DNA from: Acidimicrobiales bacterium
Lineage (GTDB): Bacteria > Actinomycetota > Acidimicrobiia > Acidimicrobiales > Acidimicrobilacustridaceae
Assembly (NCBI GenBank): GCA_030830565.1
Contig: JAURMR010000028.1
Span: 62,001 to 126,000 of the forward strand
Direction: 5' to 3'
DNA: 64,000 bases
Below the pieces are notes generated by a model. The model did not search any database and was not told the origin of the DNA. It saw nothing but the letters and a program-made list of their open reading frames with translations. Shown piece by piece: positions 32,820-37,898 of the stretch. The translations under genes were made by a program, and so were the position numbers. Position 1 is the stretch's first letter; each line of letters starts with the position of its first letter.

Positions 32820-34049
32820 TCAGTCGAGTTTGCGAATGATCTGAATGCGCTCTTCGGCGTTATTGGCGTCCTCGCCTTTGTCGTCGAGCAACGCCATGCG
32901 ATCGGCTTCTGCTTCGGCTGCAGCACCGGCATCTTTACGACGAAGCGCTTCTTCCACGCCGCCGTCGGCAATGATCTGCGCCCATTCCACAAGCGCTTCG
33001 ACCATCTCGGGTTCGGGAACGACCTTCACCACTTCGCCTTTTACGAACAGATGGCCGCGCTTTCGACCTGCAGCGATACCAAGATCGGCCTCACGAGCTT
33101 CACCAGGCCCATTCACAACACAGCCCATGACGGCGACCTGGATAGGAATGTTCATGTTAGTAAGCGCGTCTTGCGCACGAGCGGCTACTTCAATGACATC
33201 AACTTCAGCGCGACCACACGACGGGCATGCGATGAGATCAAGACCGCGTCGTTCGCGCAGGCCAAGGCTTTCAAGCAACCAGCGGCCGGCGCGAACCTCT
33301 TCAACCGGGTCTGCAGTGAGCGAGTAGCGAATGGTGTCGCCAATTCCTTCGGCTAACAAGGTGGCCATACCTGCAGTTGCTTTCACGAGTCCTGCCGGAG
33401 GCGGTCCCGCCTCGGTAACGCCCAGGTGCAACGGGTAGTCGACTGTGTCGGCCAGAAGTCGGTACGCATCAATCATGAGCGCAACGTTCGATGCTTTCAC
33501 CGAAATCTTTACGTCGTCGAAGCCCACCTCTTCGAAGTAGGCGAGCTCGCGTTTGGCTGATTCGACCATTGCTTCGGCAGTCACTTTGCCGCCGTATTTG
33601 TCGTACAACTCGGGGTCGAGCGATCCGCCGTTGACGCCAATGCGAATCGGGATACCACGATCCTTCGCTTCGCGAGCAACTGCTTTGATGTGTTCGGGCC
33701 GACGAATGTTGCCGGGGTTCAAACGCAAACCCTGCACACCCGCTTCCATTGCTTCAAGCGCGCGCCGGTACTGATGATGAATGTCGGCGATGATCGGCAG
33801 CGGCGAACGCGGAACGATGTGTGCGAGTCCTTCAGCGGCTTCCTGTTCGTTACACGTGCAGCGCACGATGTCGCAACCGGCTCCAGCTAGCGCGTAGATC
33901 TGTTGCAGCGTGCCTTCGACGTCGGCCGTCTTCGTTGTCGTCATCGACTGAATCGAGATCGGCGCGCCGCCACCAACAGCAACGTCACCAACGTGCAACT
34001 GACGAGTTGCGCGTCGTGGGTATCGGGTCTGCGGGGAAAGCTCGCTCAC
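32820..34049 (-). CDS. ispG: (E)-4-hydroxy-3-methylbut-2-enyl-diphosphate synthase
   Basis: The 409-residue enzyme has the GcpE TIM barrel (RRATRQLHVGDVAVGG, IQSMTTTKTADVEGTL, IVRCTCNEQEAAEG). The C-terminal [4Fe-4S] ferredoxin-like domain has CPSCGRAEVDV and MGCVVNGPGEAREADLG. It catalyses the penultimate steps of the methylerythritol phosphate pathway, after Dxr (37895-39094). GTG 34049 lacks a clear ribosome-binding site. In related genomes ispG directly follows rseP; here three other genes lie between. Confidence 0.95.
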   Translation of the reverse strand: MSELSPQTRYPRRATRQLHVGDVAVGGGAPISIQSMTTTKTADVEGTLQQIYALAGAGCDIVRCTCNEQEAAEGLAHIVPRSPLPIIADIHHQYRRALEAMEAGVQGLRLNPGNIRRPEHIKAVAREAKDRGIPIRIGVNGGSLDPELYDKYGGKVTAEAMVESAKRELAYFEEVGFDDVKISVKASNVALMIDAYRLLADTVDYPLHLGVTEAGPPPAGLVKATAGMATLLAEGIGDTIRYSLTADPVEEVRAGRWLLESLGLRERRGLDLIACPSCGRAEVDVIEVAARAQDALTNMNIPIQVAVMGCVVNGPGEAREADLGIAAGRKRGHLFVKGEVVKVVPEPEMVEALVEWAQIIADGGVEEALRRKDAGAAAEAEADRMALLDDKGEDANNAEERIQIIRKLD

Positions 34050-34190: not shown

Positions 34191-34880
34191 CTACGTCGTG
34201 TATTGAGCTCCACCTGAGAATGGTGGCGAGTCTGAGGCTCGTGAGGTGAAGCCCGGGGCGGGACCTTCAACCAGATCCACGAGCTCCGCCCCCGCTTCCA
34301 TAGCCTCAACGATTCGCTTTCCAATCGTCGGGCCAGCTTCAAGCACGACACGGCCTTGCGCTCGATCGATACTCACAGCGACGCCACCGAATTTCCGAAA
34401 GTCGTCTTCAGTCACGACTTTGGCCATGGCCGCGCGAGCACTCTCGGCCGCAACTTCCAAATCGGCCGCACTCGCACATCCGGCGACAAATAGAACTTCT
34501 GCATTGATCGTCTTCACTAACTGCTCGATGTCGTCGGTTGCAGCTCTCGATGGGGTAACCCCGGGAGCCACGACAACAAGAACGGTTTGAGTGACATAGT
34601 GCACGCGCACATCCAAGAAATCAGGGCTCCCAGCGATTTTCTCATGAAGCGCGTTAAAGACATCGCTAGCTTCCGGCGTTGTTGCCCACGCAAAAATGTC
34701 TTCTGCCGATCCCGACGACGGGGAATCGTACGCAGCGCCACATCCGTCTCCTTGCGAGGCATAGCCAATCCCGGAGTTAGAACTCGGCACCGCAACCCAC
34801 GCCAACACTGCGACAACTACTCCGAGCGCAAGTCCACAACTGATTCGCCGCCAGTTCTTGTTCATTACCTTCGTTGACAT
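34191..34880 (-). CDS. Single-pass exported protein, paralogue of its upstream neighbour (unknown family)
   Basis: The 229-residue protein has a short basic N-terminus, one membrane helix (residues 13-31) and an outward domain of about 195 residues with cysteines C47 and C135. Its second half (FVAGCASAADLEVAAESARA, then GGVAVSIDRAQGRVVLEAGP and EAMEAGAELVDLVEG) aligns with the end of the upstream protein (34943-35665), including the cysteine and the VVL..GP motif. I know no named family. ATG 34880 has AAAGGA upstream; an earlier in-frame start is weaker. It is the third gene of the sigma-factor trio. It may sense an envelope signal or compete with its paralogue, which is inference. Confidence 0.65.
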   Translation of the reverse strand: MSTKVMNKNWRRISCGLALGVVVAVLAWVAVPSSNSGIGYASQGDGCGAAYDSPSSGSAEDIFAWATTPEASDVFNALHEKIAGSPDFLDVRVHYVTQTVLVVVAPGVTPSRAATDDIEQLVKTINAEVLFVAGCASAADLEVAAESARAAMAKVVTEDDFRKFGGVAVSIDRAQGRVVLEAGPTIGKRIVEAMEAGAELVDLVEGPAPGFTSRASDSPPFSGGAQYTT

Positions 34881-34942
34881 TGCATTCCTTTCCGCACTCC
34901 GCCTCATTTCCGGAAACGATTAACCGATGGGCAAGACGTCCA

Positions 34943-35665
34943 TCAGTCGGTACTGCTCACAGATGAAGCGAAATCGATGAGAGCACCGTCCACGCGTGCC
35001 TCAGCGACCAACTCATCGGCGATCACCCGAGGTCCAGTGAGCACGACGAGTCCTCGCCCCTCATCAAGCGAAATAGAAACACCTGCAAGATGAGAATTTG
35101 AGCCCGCCGTTGAGATCGACGACCGGATCGATTCAGCGATAGTCGCTATGGACGCCAACGAACCGCATCGCTCAACAACGACGACTTTGAATCCTCCAGA
35201 GATTTCAAGAGCATCCAGCGATTGGCGAGGGACTGCTGTTCCTGGGTCGATTGAGAGAACTCGCACGAGACCGCTTTCGTCAAAAACTGTTCCATCGGCA
35301 AGCGAAAGTGTTGAACCGGAAGGGAGCCCTTCTCCTAAAGCAGCCGGCGCACTTACGAACTCATCGACAAATGTGCGTGCGTCCAGTGAACATCCCTCCG
35401 GACGCGGCGGCGCCGAATTTCCTGGAGTTACGCTCTCAACGTCCCGCGCAGAGTGACCAAGCCTCGGAACCACAATGAGCACGCCTAAGGACAAGGCAAC
35501 GACCGTAACGACGCCCCCGAGCGCGCGTTGGCGACGTCGACGTCTCTCGCGATGTAGACGTGGGGATTCACTTCGCGCCGATTCTGGCGTCATGGGCGTG
35601 ACGCTCTCTACCCAAGATCGAAGATCACGACCAAGGCGATCCCGTGACGTCGACCCCTCATGCAT
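34943..35665 (-). CDS. Anti-sigma-like single-pass membrane protein (unknown family)
   Basis: The 240-residue protein has a cytoplasmic head of about 48 residues ending in an Arg-rich run (RERRRRRQR), one membrane helix (49-67) and an outward domain with cysteines C92 and C167. It starts inside the end of the sigma gene: ATG 35665, GGAG nine bases upstream, eight bases overlap. Overlapping order, single membrane pass and cytoplasmic head are typical of ECF anti-sigma factors, but I see no recognised anti-sigma domain or HxxxCxxC zinc motif. Its C-terminal third is paralogous to the next protein (34191-34880). The role as anti-sigma factor is inferred from architecture and position. Confidence 0.6.
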   Translation of the reverse strand: MHEGSTSRDRLGRDLRSWVESVTPMTPESARSESPRLHRERRRRRQRALGGVVTVVALSLGVLIVVPRLGHSARDVESVTPGNSAPPRPEGCSLDARTFVDEFVSAPAALGEGLPSGSTLSLADGTVFDESGLVRVLSIDPGTAVPRQSLDALEISGGFKVVVVERCGSLASIATIAESIRSSISTAGSNSHLAGVSISLDEGRGLVVLTGPRVIADELVAEARVDGALIDFASSVSSTD

Positions 35666-36191
35666 CTTCATCAACTCCGATTTCGATCGCGACCGACTCG
35701 TCCGATTCAGGACCAGCAACACCAAGTTCATTTCGGAGACGTTCGATTCCACGCTCAAAATGCTTCTGGACCGTCGGCTTGGTCACCGACAAGACCTCAC
35801 CCGCTTCGGCAAATGACAGTCCGTAACCGGCGATGAGAACAACACAACTTCGCTGACGGTCAGAGAGTTTTCGAAGAGCCTTGTCGAGCCCCGGTTCAAA
35901 TTCATGCTCGCGAGGTGCGATTAGCGGTTCAATCTTGGGGAAAAGAAGTCTCATCCGCGTGCGGCTTGTTCCCACCTTCACCAGATACGGGATTGGCGAT
36001 TCGATTTCCCGCACCCGTTCCCATCGCTCCCACGCCCAACTTAAGGCTTCCGCTGTCGCGACCGCTCCCCGATCGCGCCCGTGACGGGCCACGAGCGCCG
36101 CTCGAAGTATCGGCTCCACACTGACGACAAAGGCATCAAAACCGTCTGACGTGAGATCTTTCGAATTTGCGCATTCAACGTCAGCACTCAT
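35658..36191 (-). CDS. ECF-like RNA polymerase sigma factor (SigE/RpoE-type region 4)
   Basis: The 177-residue protein has a reduced region 2-like helix bundle (about residues 20-65, FDAFVVSVEPILRAALVARH and EALSWAWERWERV) and a clear region 4 helix-turn-helix (103-155). Region 4 reads LRKLSDRQRSCVVLIAGYGL, then SFAEAGEVLSVTKPTVQKHF. Region 2 lacks the usual ECF DD-Q motif, so it is divergent. I chose ATG 36191 after GGGAG; a GTG 69 bases upstream is weaker. The tail is acidic. It heads a three-gene unit with two paralogous membrane proteins and sits 171 bases behind rseP, a site-2 protease of the kind that releases sigma factors. Confidence 0.72.
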   Translation of the reverse strand: MSADVECANSKDLTSDGFDAFVVSVEPILRAALVARHGRDRGAVATAEALSWAWERWERVREIESPIPYLVKVGTSRTRMRLLFPKIEPLIAPREHEFEPGLDKALRKLSDRQRSCVVLIAGYGLSFAEAGEVLSVTKPTVQKHFERGIERLRNELGVAGPESDESVAIEIGVDEDA

Positions 36192-36362
36192 CGCGACAAC
36201 TCCCGGAGGAGCAATTGACGTCACCTCCCCCGGGAGCCTGAAATCCGCCACCTGATTCACACCGGTAGAAGGCGGTGAGTGAGGCGATCGTATGACAGTG
36301 AGTTCTACAAAACTCTGCCTTTCGTCGAAATCAGCGACGCGCAGCGCCCGTTTGCCGACTAG

Positions 36363-37898
36363 CTACGGCGAGAGTTTTACGGGGTCCACGGCATCGAGAT
36401 AGAGCGTGGACGCGAAGAGCCCCACCATGAGCAAGACCACGATGTACGTGACGGGCATGAGTTTGGCCATATTCACCCGATAGGCCTTGCCCGAAATGCG
36501 GGTCCGGATCTCTTCGTAGGTGGCGACAGCAATGTGACCACCATCGAATGGGAGGATCGGAACCAAGTTGATCAGGCCGAGGAAAATATTGACGGTGGCC
36601 AGAAGCGCAAGGACCCCTGCCCACCCAGCCTCCTCACCTAACTGCGTTCCCACATTCACAATGCCGAGCAACGACATCGGTCGATCGGCATTCGAAGAGG
36701 CTGTTGCCGACGAACCTGAGTTTGAACCGGCACCGGTTGATCCCGAACTCACCGGTTCGATTGCGCTTGAAGATTCCGAACTGCCGCCATTGGCAACCTG
36801 CGAGGCCAACTTACTGATGCCACTCGGCGAGAAGAGGCGGCCCATCCCCTGCACCGAACCCACCACGGTGTCGCCGAACGCTTGAACGGCCTGGCCAGTT
36901 GCTTCAACGATGCCTGCGTGCACGAGAACAGAACTTGGGCTCACGCCAAGGAACCCCCGGTACCCTTCAACTGGCATTGCGAGGGGACCCTCAACAACAG
37001 TCGTGAAGGCGCGGTCGTTGCGGTCAAACGTGATTGTCACCGGGCCGATGACACGCTGAAGTGCAGCTTGCATCTCGGAATACGAGGACACGGAGATGTC
37101 GCCGACTTTGGTGACTCGATCACCGGGCACGAGTGGCTGAAGTGCACGAGCGCCTTCAGTGTTCAGCGACCAGCCGAAGGTGGTCGGAATCGTGAGCTGT
37201 TCATCGCCGCGCTGAACGGTGAGTTGGCCCGGCGAGCCAGCGTGGGCACGAACGACGGAGGTGAAATCATCAAAGGTGCCAACAGGCTCGCCGTCGAGCG
37301 CAAGAATTCTGTCGCCCGGCTGAAGACCGGCACTGGCTGCCGCCGAACCAGCCGACACTGAGTCAACTTTCCACTTATCGGTTGACGGATGCCCGAAACC
37401 GGCGAACACCACAACAAGCAGTACTAGGCCGAGCACGATGTTCGTTACCGGCCCCGCAAGAACCACCGGCATGCGACGCCAATAGGACTGCGCACGGTAG
37501 GTGCGGCCTTCATCGTCGGAATCGTCGATTTCCTCGAGGCCGTGCATGCCGATGATGCGGACATAGGCGCCAGCAGGAATCAGTTTGAGGCCGTATTCAG
37601 TTTCGCCGCGACGGAACGACCACACTCGCGGACCAAAGCCGATGAAGAACTCAGTGACCTTCATGCCATTGCGCTTGGCCATAAGGAAATGGCCCATTTC
37701 GTGCAAGAAAACCGATGCGACGATGGCGATGATCAAAACGAATAACCAAATGCGGGTGAATGCAACCCAACCCAGCAATGCAAGGAGCAAGCCGAGAAGT
37801 ACGAATTGGTTACCAAAGACTCGTTCGAGCAGTGGCGGTTTCGCCGCAGCATTGTTGAGTTCGTCGTTGGAATTCTTCGGTTCAACTGGGGTCGTCAT
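36363..37898 (-). CDS. rseP: Site-2 protease, RIP metalloprotease RseP/M50B
   Basis: The 511-residue integral membrane protease has zinc motif HEMGH in VASVFLHEMGHFLMAKRNGM near residue 66, a PDZ domain (about 175-330), and the second metal segment NLVPILPFDGGHIAVATYEE. A Ser/Gly-rich stretch at about residues 375-415 is an unusual linker between the PDZ part and the last helices. It cleaves transmembrane anti-sigma factors after a first cut. It overlaps dxr by four bases (ATGA), the normal dxr-rseP order, and is followed by the sigma trio instead of ispG. Confidence 0.93.
   Translation of the reverse strand: MTTPVEPKNSNDELNNAAAKPPLLERVFGNQFVLLGLLLALLGWVAFTRIWLFVLIIAIVASVFLHEMGHFLMAKRNGMKVTEFFIGFGPRVWSFRRGETEYGLKLIPAGAYVRIIGMHGLEEIDDSDDEGRTYRAQSYWRRMPVVLAGPVTNIVLGLVLLVVVFAGFGHPSTDKWKVDSVSAGSAAASAGLQPGDRILALDGEPVGTFDDFTSVVRAHAGSPGQLTVQRGDEQLTIPTTFGWSLNTEGARALQPLVPGDRVTKVGDISVSSYSEMQAALQRVIGPVTITFDRNDRAFTTVVEGPLAMPVEGYRGFLGVSPSSVLVHAGIVEATGQAVQAFGDTVVGSVQGMGRLFSPSGISKLASQVANGGSSESSSAIEPVSSGSTGAGSNSGSSATASSNADRPMSLLGIVNVGTQLGEEAGWAGVLALLATVNIFLGLINLVPILPFDGGHIAVATYEEIRTRISGKAYRVNMAKLMPVTYIVVLLMVGLFASTLYLDAVDPVKLSP

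Follow-up and report, generated by a model that had tools for sequence, protein, structure and literature searches.

What do the three genes that separate rseP from ispG in an Acidimicrobiales bacterium respond to? The window analysed here is a stretch of 64,000 nucleotides (nt) of this genome (GenBank assembly GCA_030830565.1, contig JAURMR010000028.1, positions 62,001 to 126,000 of the forward strand), and its coordinates are counted from its first base. On its minus strand, an extracytoplasmic function (ECF)-like sigma factor gene overlaps by eight bases (35658-35665) the gene of a single-pass membrane protein, and a second single-pass or anchored protein is encoded next. The initial annotation, which described this layout with coordinates that agree with ours (Table 1), took the trio for a self-contained envelope-sensing module. 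We find that the sigma factor is accompanied by a very probable anti-sigma factor, and that the outward domains of the two membrane proteins are related, by descent or by fold, to the pro region of secreted S1 proteases with its two repeats and its cysteines, a conclusion with moderate support. Our preferred reading, held tentatively and at slightly less than an even chance, is that a secreted protease is sensed by the anti-sigma factor, or cuts it, and that the anchored free prosegment acts as a modulator.

The sigma factor is divergent. Its region 4 matches Pfam Sigma70_r4_2 (E 1.3e-9, above the cut-off), region 2 has no Pfam match at E up to 1, and residues 15-156 align with NCBIfam SigE-fam_strep at 53 bits, under the cut-off of 141.55. 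With a profile built from two sigma sequences, hits were obtained in 53 of the 397 genomes searched in the order (81 places, the window's own among them). We surveyed the best 41 of the 80 other places (40 stretches) together with a related locus in the congeneric genome G012, which gave 41 loci and 43 sigma open reading frames (ORFs). A same-strand single-pass partner lies next downstream of 41 of these 43 ORFs, the misses being at loci L093 and L115; across the 40 stretches, which have 348 predicted genes in total, 41 show the same layout, the partners themselves included. The partners mostly carry a strong hydrophobic segment after 35-60 residues, followed by a long outward part, and a few have a second, weaker hydrophobic segment. 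Some of their heads appear too long because start codons were assigned mechanically; with these starts, the genes of the 41 pairs overlap by 8 bases in 13 cases and by 4 bases in 7.

A short motif, roughly L...LR...P(I/V)...E...RRR, is common to the heads of this class. Against a model of 40 other heads (window and G012 excluded), the head of the window's first membrane protein scores 15.5 bits, a value reached by none of 1000 shuffles (best 8.6), and the N-terminus of the second protein scores -0.4. The membrane helix of the first protein is placed at residues ~50-68 by hydropathy only. Given the class layout and the head score, the first protein is very probably an anti-sigma factor, a role already suggested by the initial annotation and strengthened here; the second, being headless, very probably is not. 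Sequence evidence thus gives good support to a sigma factor restrained by the overlapping protein through its short Arg-rich head, an arrangement common to a large sigma/anti-sigma class of the order. A paper on class I and class II ECF anti-sigma factors treats heads shorter than 50 residues separately, as possible class II (PMC7406223). The window's protein resembles these anti-sigma factors in that its gene adjoins that of its sigma factor, with a head of about 48 residues, but no recognised anti-sigma Pfam domain is matched in this head.

The outward parts of the class are very diverse (loci L080-L119 and L120-L134); by eye they include beta-propellers and PASTA-like, transpeptidase-like and DUF4349-like domains. 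One genome, G164, has six sigma matches of the class. Two of these cluster with a weaker third (50 bits) on contig C56 (L110, 4221-10723): the three fall within 3.6 kb, in divergent and tandem orientation, and each has a membrane partner of its own.

The two outward domains of the window are mutually homologous. The alignment that had been noticed between them is borne out by BLASTP (E 0.002 over 41 residues) and by hhalign, where the score of 33.0 is reached by none of 300 shuffles (best 19.8). The cysteines are also as first described, C92/C167 in the anti-sigma factor and C47/C135 in the second protein, which has an additional one, C15, at or in the membrane segment. The absence of a named family, likewise noted at the outset, stands for Pfam and NCBIfam, but the domains do have relatives and are most like the pro regions of S1 proteases.

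Two genes upstream of its sigma/anti-sigma pair, G012 encodes a 440-residue secreted protein with TAGHC, HD and GDSGG motifs and a pro region, an S1-type triad by eye with no Pfam Trypsin match. The G012 pro region and the window domains have, by eye, a common order of elements: a cysteine, a helix, a beta hairpin, a helix, a strand ending in a second cysteine, a helix, a second hairpin, a helix and a strand, with the first hairpin reduced in the anti-sigma domain. Genome G470, of a distantly related actinobacterium, encodes two small proteins that consist of an N-terminal hydrophobic segment and a pro-region-like domain only, each with two cysteines; for one of these solo proteins the sole Pfam family listed is the Alpha-lytic protease prodomain (PF02983; E 0.17, 12.4 of 23.4 bits), a family that neither window protein matches at the curated cut-off. 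The G470 stretches examined (L152, L153) contain no sigma-like frame and no motif-positive S1 protease. A profile built from two pro regions and the two solo proteins scores 21.7 against the anti-sigma domain (0 of 200 shuffles), 20.6 against the second protein (1 of 200) and 28.0 against the aligned window pair (0 of 300 column shuffles, best 22.9). Taken alone, the sequence evidence for a pro-region likeness is modest. Searches of PDB sequences with the anti-sigma factor, two proteases and a five-row domain profile returned nothing useful. The small secreted protein that also precedes the G012 pair is weakly supported as pro-region-like (hhalign E 0.014 to 0.25).

Exactly two cysteines lie outside the membrane segment in all eight proteins compared, a set chosen for likeness (the two window proteins, the G012 anti-sigma factor and small protein, two protease pro regions and the two G470 solos). 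A further S1 pro region (G608) has no cysteine, and the anti-sigma factor of genome G192 has four in a different pattern. The constancy of the pair would suit a redox sensor, in which it toggles between thiol and disulfide and so controls proteolysis of the anti-sigma factor. Yet the pair is equally kept in the two pro regions and the two solos, which indicates a putative structural disulfide, and the window's cysteines are 75 and 88 residues apart with no CxxC. We regard redox sensing as very unlikely.

Structure prediction gives further support to a pro-region fold. The outward part of the second protein was modelled with AlphaFold2 from a four-row alignment, one row of which is the G012 pro region, at a predicted local distance difference test score (pLDDT) of 72.7 and a predicted TM-score (pTM) of 0.54, with helices (H) and strands (E) in the order H-H-EE-H-E-H-(H)-EE-H-E. 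The alpha-lytic protease pro region (PF02983; PDB 2PRO, 3PRO, 4PRO) had been named as the expected match before the fold search, and among the 50 rows returned by VIA it occupies ranks 2-4: 3pro_D with Z 9.0 (68 residues of the second half at 2.1 A), 4pro_D with Z 8.7 and 2pro_C with Z 8.0. Rank 1 goes to a designed binder aligned with the first half (Z 9.0), and the row after the pro regions has Z 7.3. Since models that lack a clear match commonly reach a best Z of 7-8, this support is good but not overwhelming. The 2pro_C match extends over 112 residues across both halves at a root-mean-square deviation of 10.0 A, so the two halves are placed differently from those of 2pro_C. By its model, the second protein is predicted to have the two-repeat pro-region fold. 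Unlike the alpha-lytic pro region, the window domain is carried on an anchor or an anti-sigma factor and not on a protease, has a cysteine pair and falls below Pfam detection.

Protease genes adjoin two related switches. When the G012 protease was compared with the 397 genomes of the order, a sample from which G012 is evidently absent, a single match at E 1e-6 was obtained, in G192, where the protease gene starts ~170 nt past an anti-sigma gene of the class whose sigma factor had been found independently by the sigma profile. The chance of such a coincidence is near 2e-4, a rough figure that takes the 80 other sigma places, 2 kb on each side and 397 genomes of ~3.5 Mb. A profile of the two proteases matched four of 346 genomes of the phylum, three through S1 proteases and the fourth being G470. 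A third arrangement, outside the class and more remote, occurs on the Streptomycetaceae plasmid CP108401.1, where a sigma-70 gene and the gene of a 256-residue single-pass protein are followed 30 nt on by a convergent S1 peptidase gene. Three of eight motif-positive S1 protease loci have a sigma gene within ~2 kb, a rough count in that the G012 locus was found through its sigma factor and the plasmid sigma was part of the model used.

Other plasmid searches returned little. The window's sigma factor retrieved two remote records, the NBC_01309 protease only itself and the G192 protease none; the G012 protease retrieved three Streptomyces clavuligerus records, of which the one inspected (L177) is without a sigma-like frame. 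The other plasmid locus, L173, has neither a motif-positive S1 protease nor a sigma gene. The sigma factor of CP108401.1 looks more canonical than that of the window.

Pro regions are tight inhibitors and folding aids of their own protease, which later degrades them. Because a pro region binds and inhibits its protease and is then destroyed by it, and given the precedent of RsiV described below, we infer that the anti-sigma factor may be a protease receptor or substrate. A secreted trypsin-like S1 protease would dock on or cut its outward domain, which would serve as a receptor or a sacrificial substrate. Binding or cutting would expose the anti-sigma factor to site-2 cleavage, for which the neighbouring RseP is a candidate, and the sigma factor would be freed. 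The second protein, which has the same domain on an anchor and no head to bind the sigma factor, would dampen the signal, either by capturing the protease or by aiding its folding. The protease could be the bacterium's own, missing from the assembly, or that of a neighbour.

Parts of this scheme have parallels in known systems. In Bacillus subtilis, the SigV anti-sigma factor RsiV is reported to be the receptor of secreted lysozyme, and binding exposes RsiV to site-1 and then intramembrane cleavage (PMC4183432). As this system is described there, the likeness lies in the anti-sigma factor itself being the receptor for a secreted enzyme; the difference is that RsiV senses lysozyme and not a protease. 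To our knowledge, RsiV-SigV has no tandem paralogue. A study of Clostridium thermocellum describes RsgI proteins as membrane anti-sigma factors that sense extracellular substrates and whose membrane helix is cut by RseP (PMC12203970). They resemble the window's protein as membrane anti-sigma factors with extracellular sensing. The sensors of RsgI are polysaccharide-binding modules, and its sigma factor is from another family. Among the matches listed from the open-licence PMC literature, judged by title and the start of the abstract, none links anti-sigma factors to the pro regions of proteases.

Several observations weigh against protease sensing through a pro region. Neither window membrane protein matches a Pfam family. 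The G012 anti-sigma domain taken alone scores 12.8 with the pro-region profile, which 63 of 200 shuffles reach, and one of the 41 survey outward parts (G012 included), beta-propeller-like by eye, scores 24.8 over 52 columns (0 of 100 of its own shuffles), so that single scores near 21 are not proof. The outward part of the G192 anti-sigma factor, suspected by eye to be pro-region-like, is unsupported by profile scores. The domain of the CP108401.1 single-pass protein was judged by eye only, and no sigma gene accompanies five of the eight motif-positive S1 protease loci in the stretches inspected. For the anti-sigma domain the model is poor (pLDDT 43); its second half has the same element order. 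No G012-type protease was found in the window genome, a 71%-complete assembly, at E up to 10; the only Trypsin-family match there looks, by eye, like an HtrA-type membrane protease with a PDZ-like end. Finally, Foldseek E-values favour archaeal KH proteins (5.8e-4) and the dual-BON proteins DolP (1.2e-3) and OsmY (1.5e-3), with 3pro_C (E 1.6e-2, probability 0.98) below both groups, and a comparison of C-terminal halves (three sequences, G012 included) gives 16.1 for BON (1 of 200 shuffles) vs 11.7 for S1 pro-region halves (3 of 200).

The last three of these results would fit outward domains of BON-like type, or generic tandem alpha-beta-beta-alpha-beta modules, with lipid, peptidoglycan or some other component of the envelope as ligand; the likeness to pro regions would then be convergent and the switch an ordinary envelope-stress sensor. 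Over the whole window pair, however, a BON profile (Escherichia coli OsmY and DolP) gives 13.9, a score that 25 of 300 shuffles attain, vs the 28.0 obtained with pro regions, and Pfam BON is matched by neither window protein. The two-cysteine layout, moreover, is common to the two protease pro regions, and the protease genes next to the G012 and G192 switches speak for a pro region as well. DolP and OsmY are outside VIA's best 50 rows, which carries no weight as a difference. We consider the BON-like alternative unlikely, though by no means negligible.

How did the switch come to lie beside rseP? In order of transcription, the minus strand reads dxr, rseP, sigma, anti-sigma, second protein, ispG and proS, and the rseP-ispG interval is ~2.3 kb. 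That the flanking genes are rseP and ispG, as first annotated, is confirmed by Pfam, and their usual adjacency is borne out among the congeneric genomes. rseP was detected in 18 of 21 genomes of the genus; of the 20 rseP loci retrieved, 15 (in 15 other genomes) include ispG, four are on contigs ending at or within rseP, and the remaining one is that of the window. In all 15, the two genes are separated by 13-25 nt between aligned ends (19 nt in 13 genomes and, in one genome each, 13 and 25 nt). Four of six empty sites inspected have the junction rseP-TAG-CCCTAACCTC-...-GTG-ispG; in the window, foreign sequence begins past the rseP stop TAG, and TAACCTC is retained beside ispG. The insert's three genes include no transposase gene, and no separate mobile-element search was made. 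We conclude that a three-gene switch was inserted between rseP and ispG, probably by horizontal transfer. Base composition was considered as a mark of horizontal origin and set aside: the G+C content of the three genes (0.556-0.575) differs too little from that of dxr, rseP, ispG and proS (0.581-0.597) to decide.

Table 1. Positions of the window features and of the comparison loci named in the text
Feature	Position	Strand	Remarks
ECF-like sigma factor gene	35658-36191	-	177 amino acids; region 4 clear, region 2 divergent
Anti-sigma candidate gene	34943-35665	-	240 amino acids; Arg-rich head of ~48 residues, one membrane helix, outward domain with C92 and C167
Second single-pass or anchored protein gene	34191-34880	-	229 amino acids from ATG 34880; headless; C47 and C135
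rseP, site-2 protease	36363-37898	-	upstream neighbour; Pfam Peptidase_M50 E 2.5e-47, plus PDZ
ispG	32820-34049	-	downstream neighbour; Pfam GcpE E 1.7e-137
12-nt inverted repeat	36200-36236	-	immediately 5' of sigma ATG; arms 92% complementary
Plasmid trio	L172 4888-7527 = CP108401.1 278887-281526	S1 peptidase convergent	sigma, Arg-rich-headed single-pass protein, S1 peptidase
G470 solo proteins	L152 7726-8415; L153 5274-5894	both -	pro-region-like domain alone, anchored or secreted

The trio is not conserved as such. A sigma relative at E 1e-6 or better is present in one of the 20 other genomes of the genus, G012 (49% identity), where the anti-sigma relative (32% identity) again overlaps its sigma gene; this pair sits on a contig different from that of rseP and is without the window's second protein. 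Other anti-sigma matches, from family genomes and a sample of relatives (E 2e-4 to 0.01), span mainly the head-to-membrane stretch of the query, and an anti-sigma profile found no relative among viral contigs. Only the window genome, among those examined, has rseP beside such a switch, and because the trio is not conserved, the rseP neighbourhood alone cannot show a functional link to RseP. Of the module first proposed, a sigma/anti-sigma pair with a tandem sensor paralogue beside rseP stands, and its conservation as a trio does not.

Across the other 36 genomes of the family, nothing convincingly related to the second protein turned up; the best of them reached E 9.8e-4. Whole proteases, moreover, lie beside the G012 and G192 switches where the window has the free domain only. 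Both facts would fit a functionless remnant of a protease gene that once belonged to the module and, having lost its catalytic domain, kept only the pro-region part. The gene nevertheless is an open frame with its own anchor and a composition like that of its neighbours, and the two separate solo genes of G470, homologous to it, show that such a form can persist. A remnant is in our view distinctly improbable. A further open ATG lies upstream of the second-protein gene, at 34907.

A stable hairpin (36200-36236) before the sigma start appears to mask a likely ribosome-binding site, which would allow translational control. Its fold has -33.2 kcal/mol (z -2.18; 6 of 200 shuffles equally good), and the 3' arm contains GGGAG, which we take to be the ribosome-binding motif. 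Neither Rfam at its gathering threshold nor a tRNA scan yielded a match in the window.

More generally, and with considerable doubt, the switch may read extracellular proteolysis directly, with the pro region as bait on which a cognate or foreign S1 protease docks and which it destroys, the anchored free pro region setting the threshold, and the switch travelling with or without its protease between actinobacteria. If protease sensing of this kind is true, bacteria would perceive protease activity outside the cell through the protease's own inhibitor segment, mounted on an anti-sigma factor, in parallel with the lysozyme receptor RsiV. Protease pro regions could then live as free, membrane-anchored proteins, and one of the many anti-sigma sensors of Acidimicrobiia would have a concrete class of candidate ligands.

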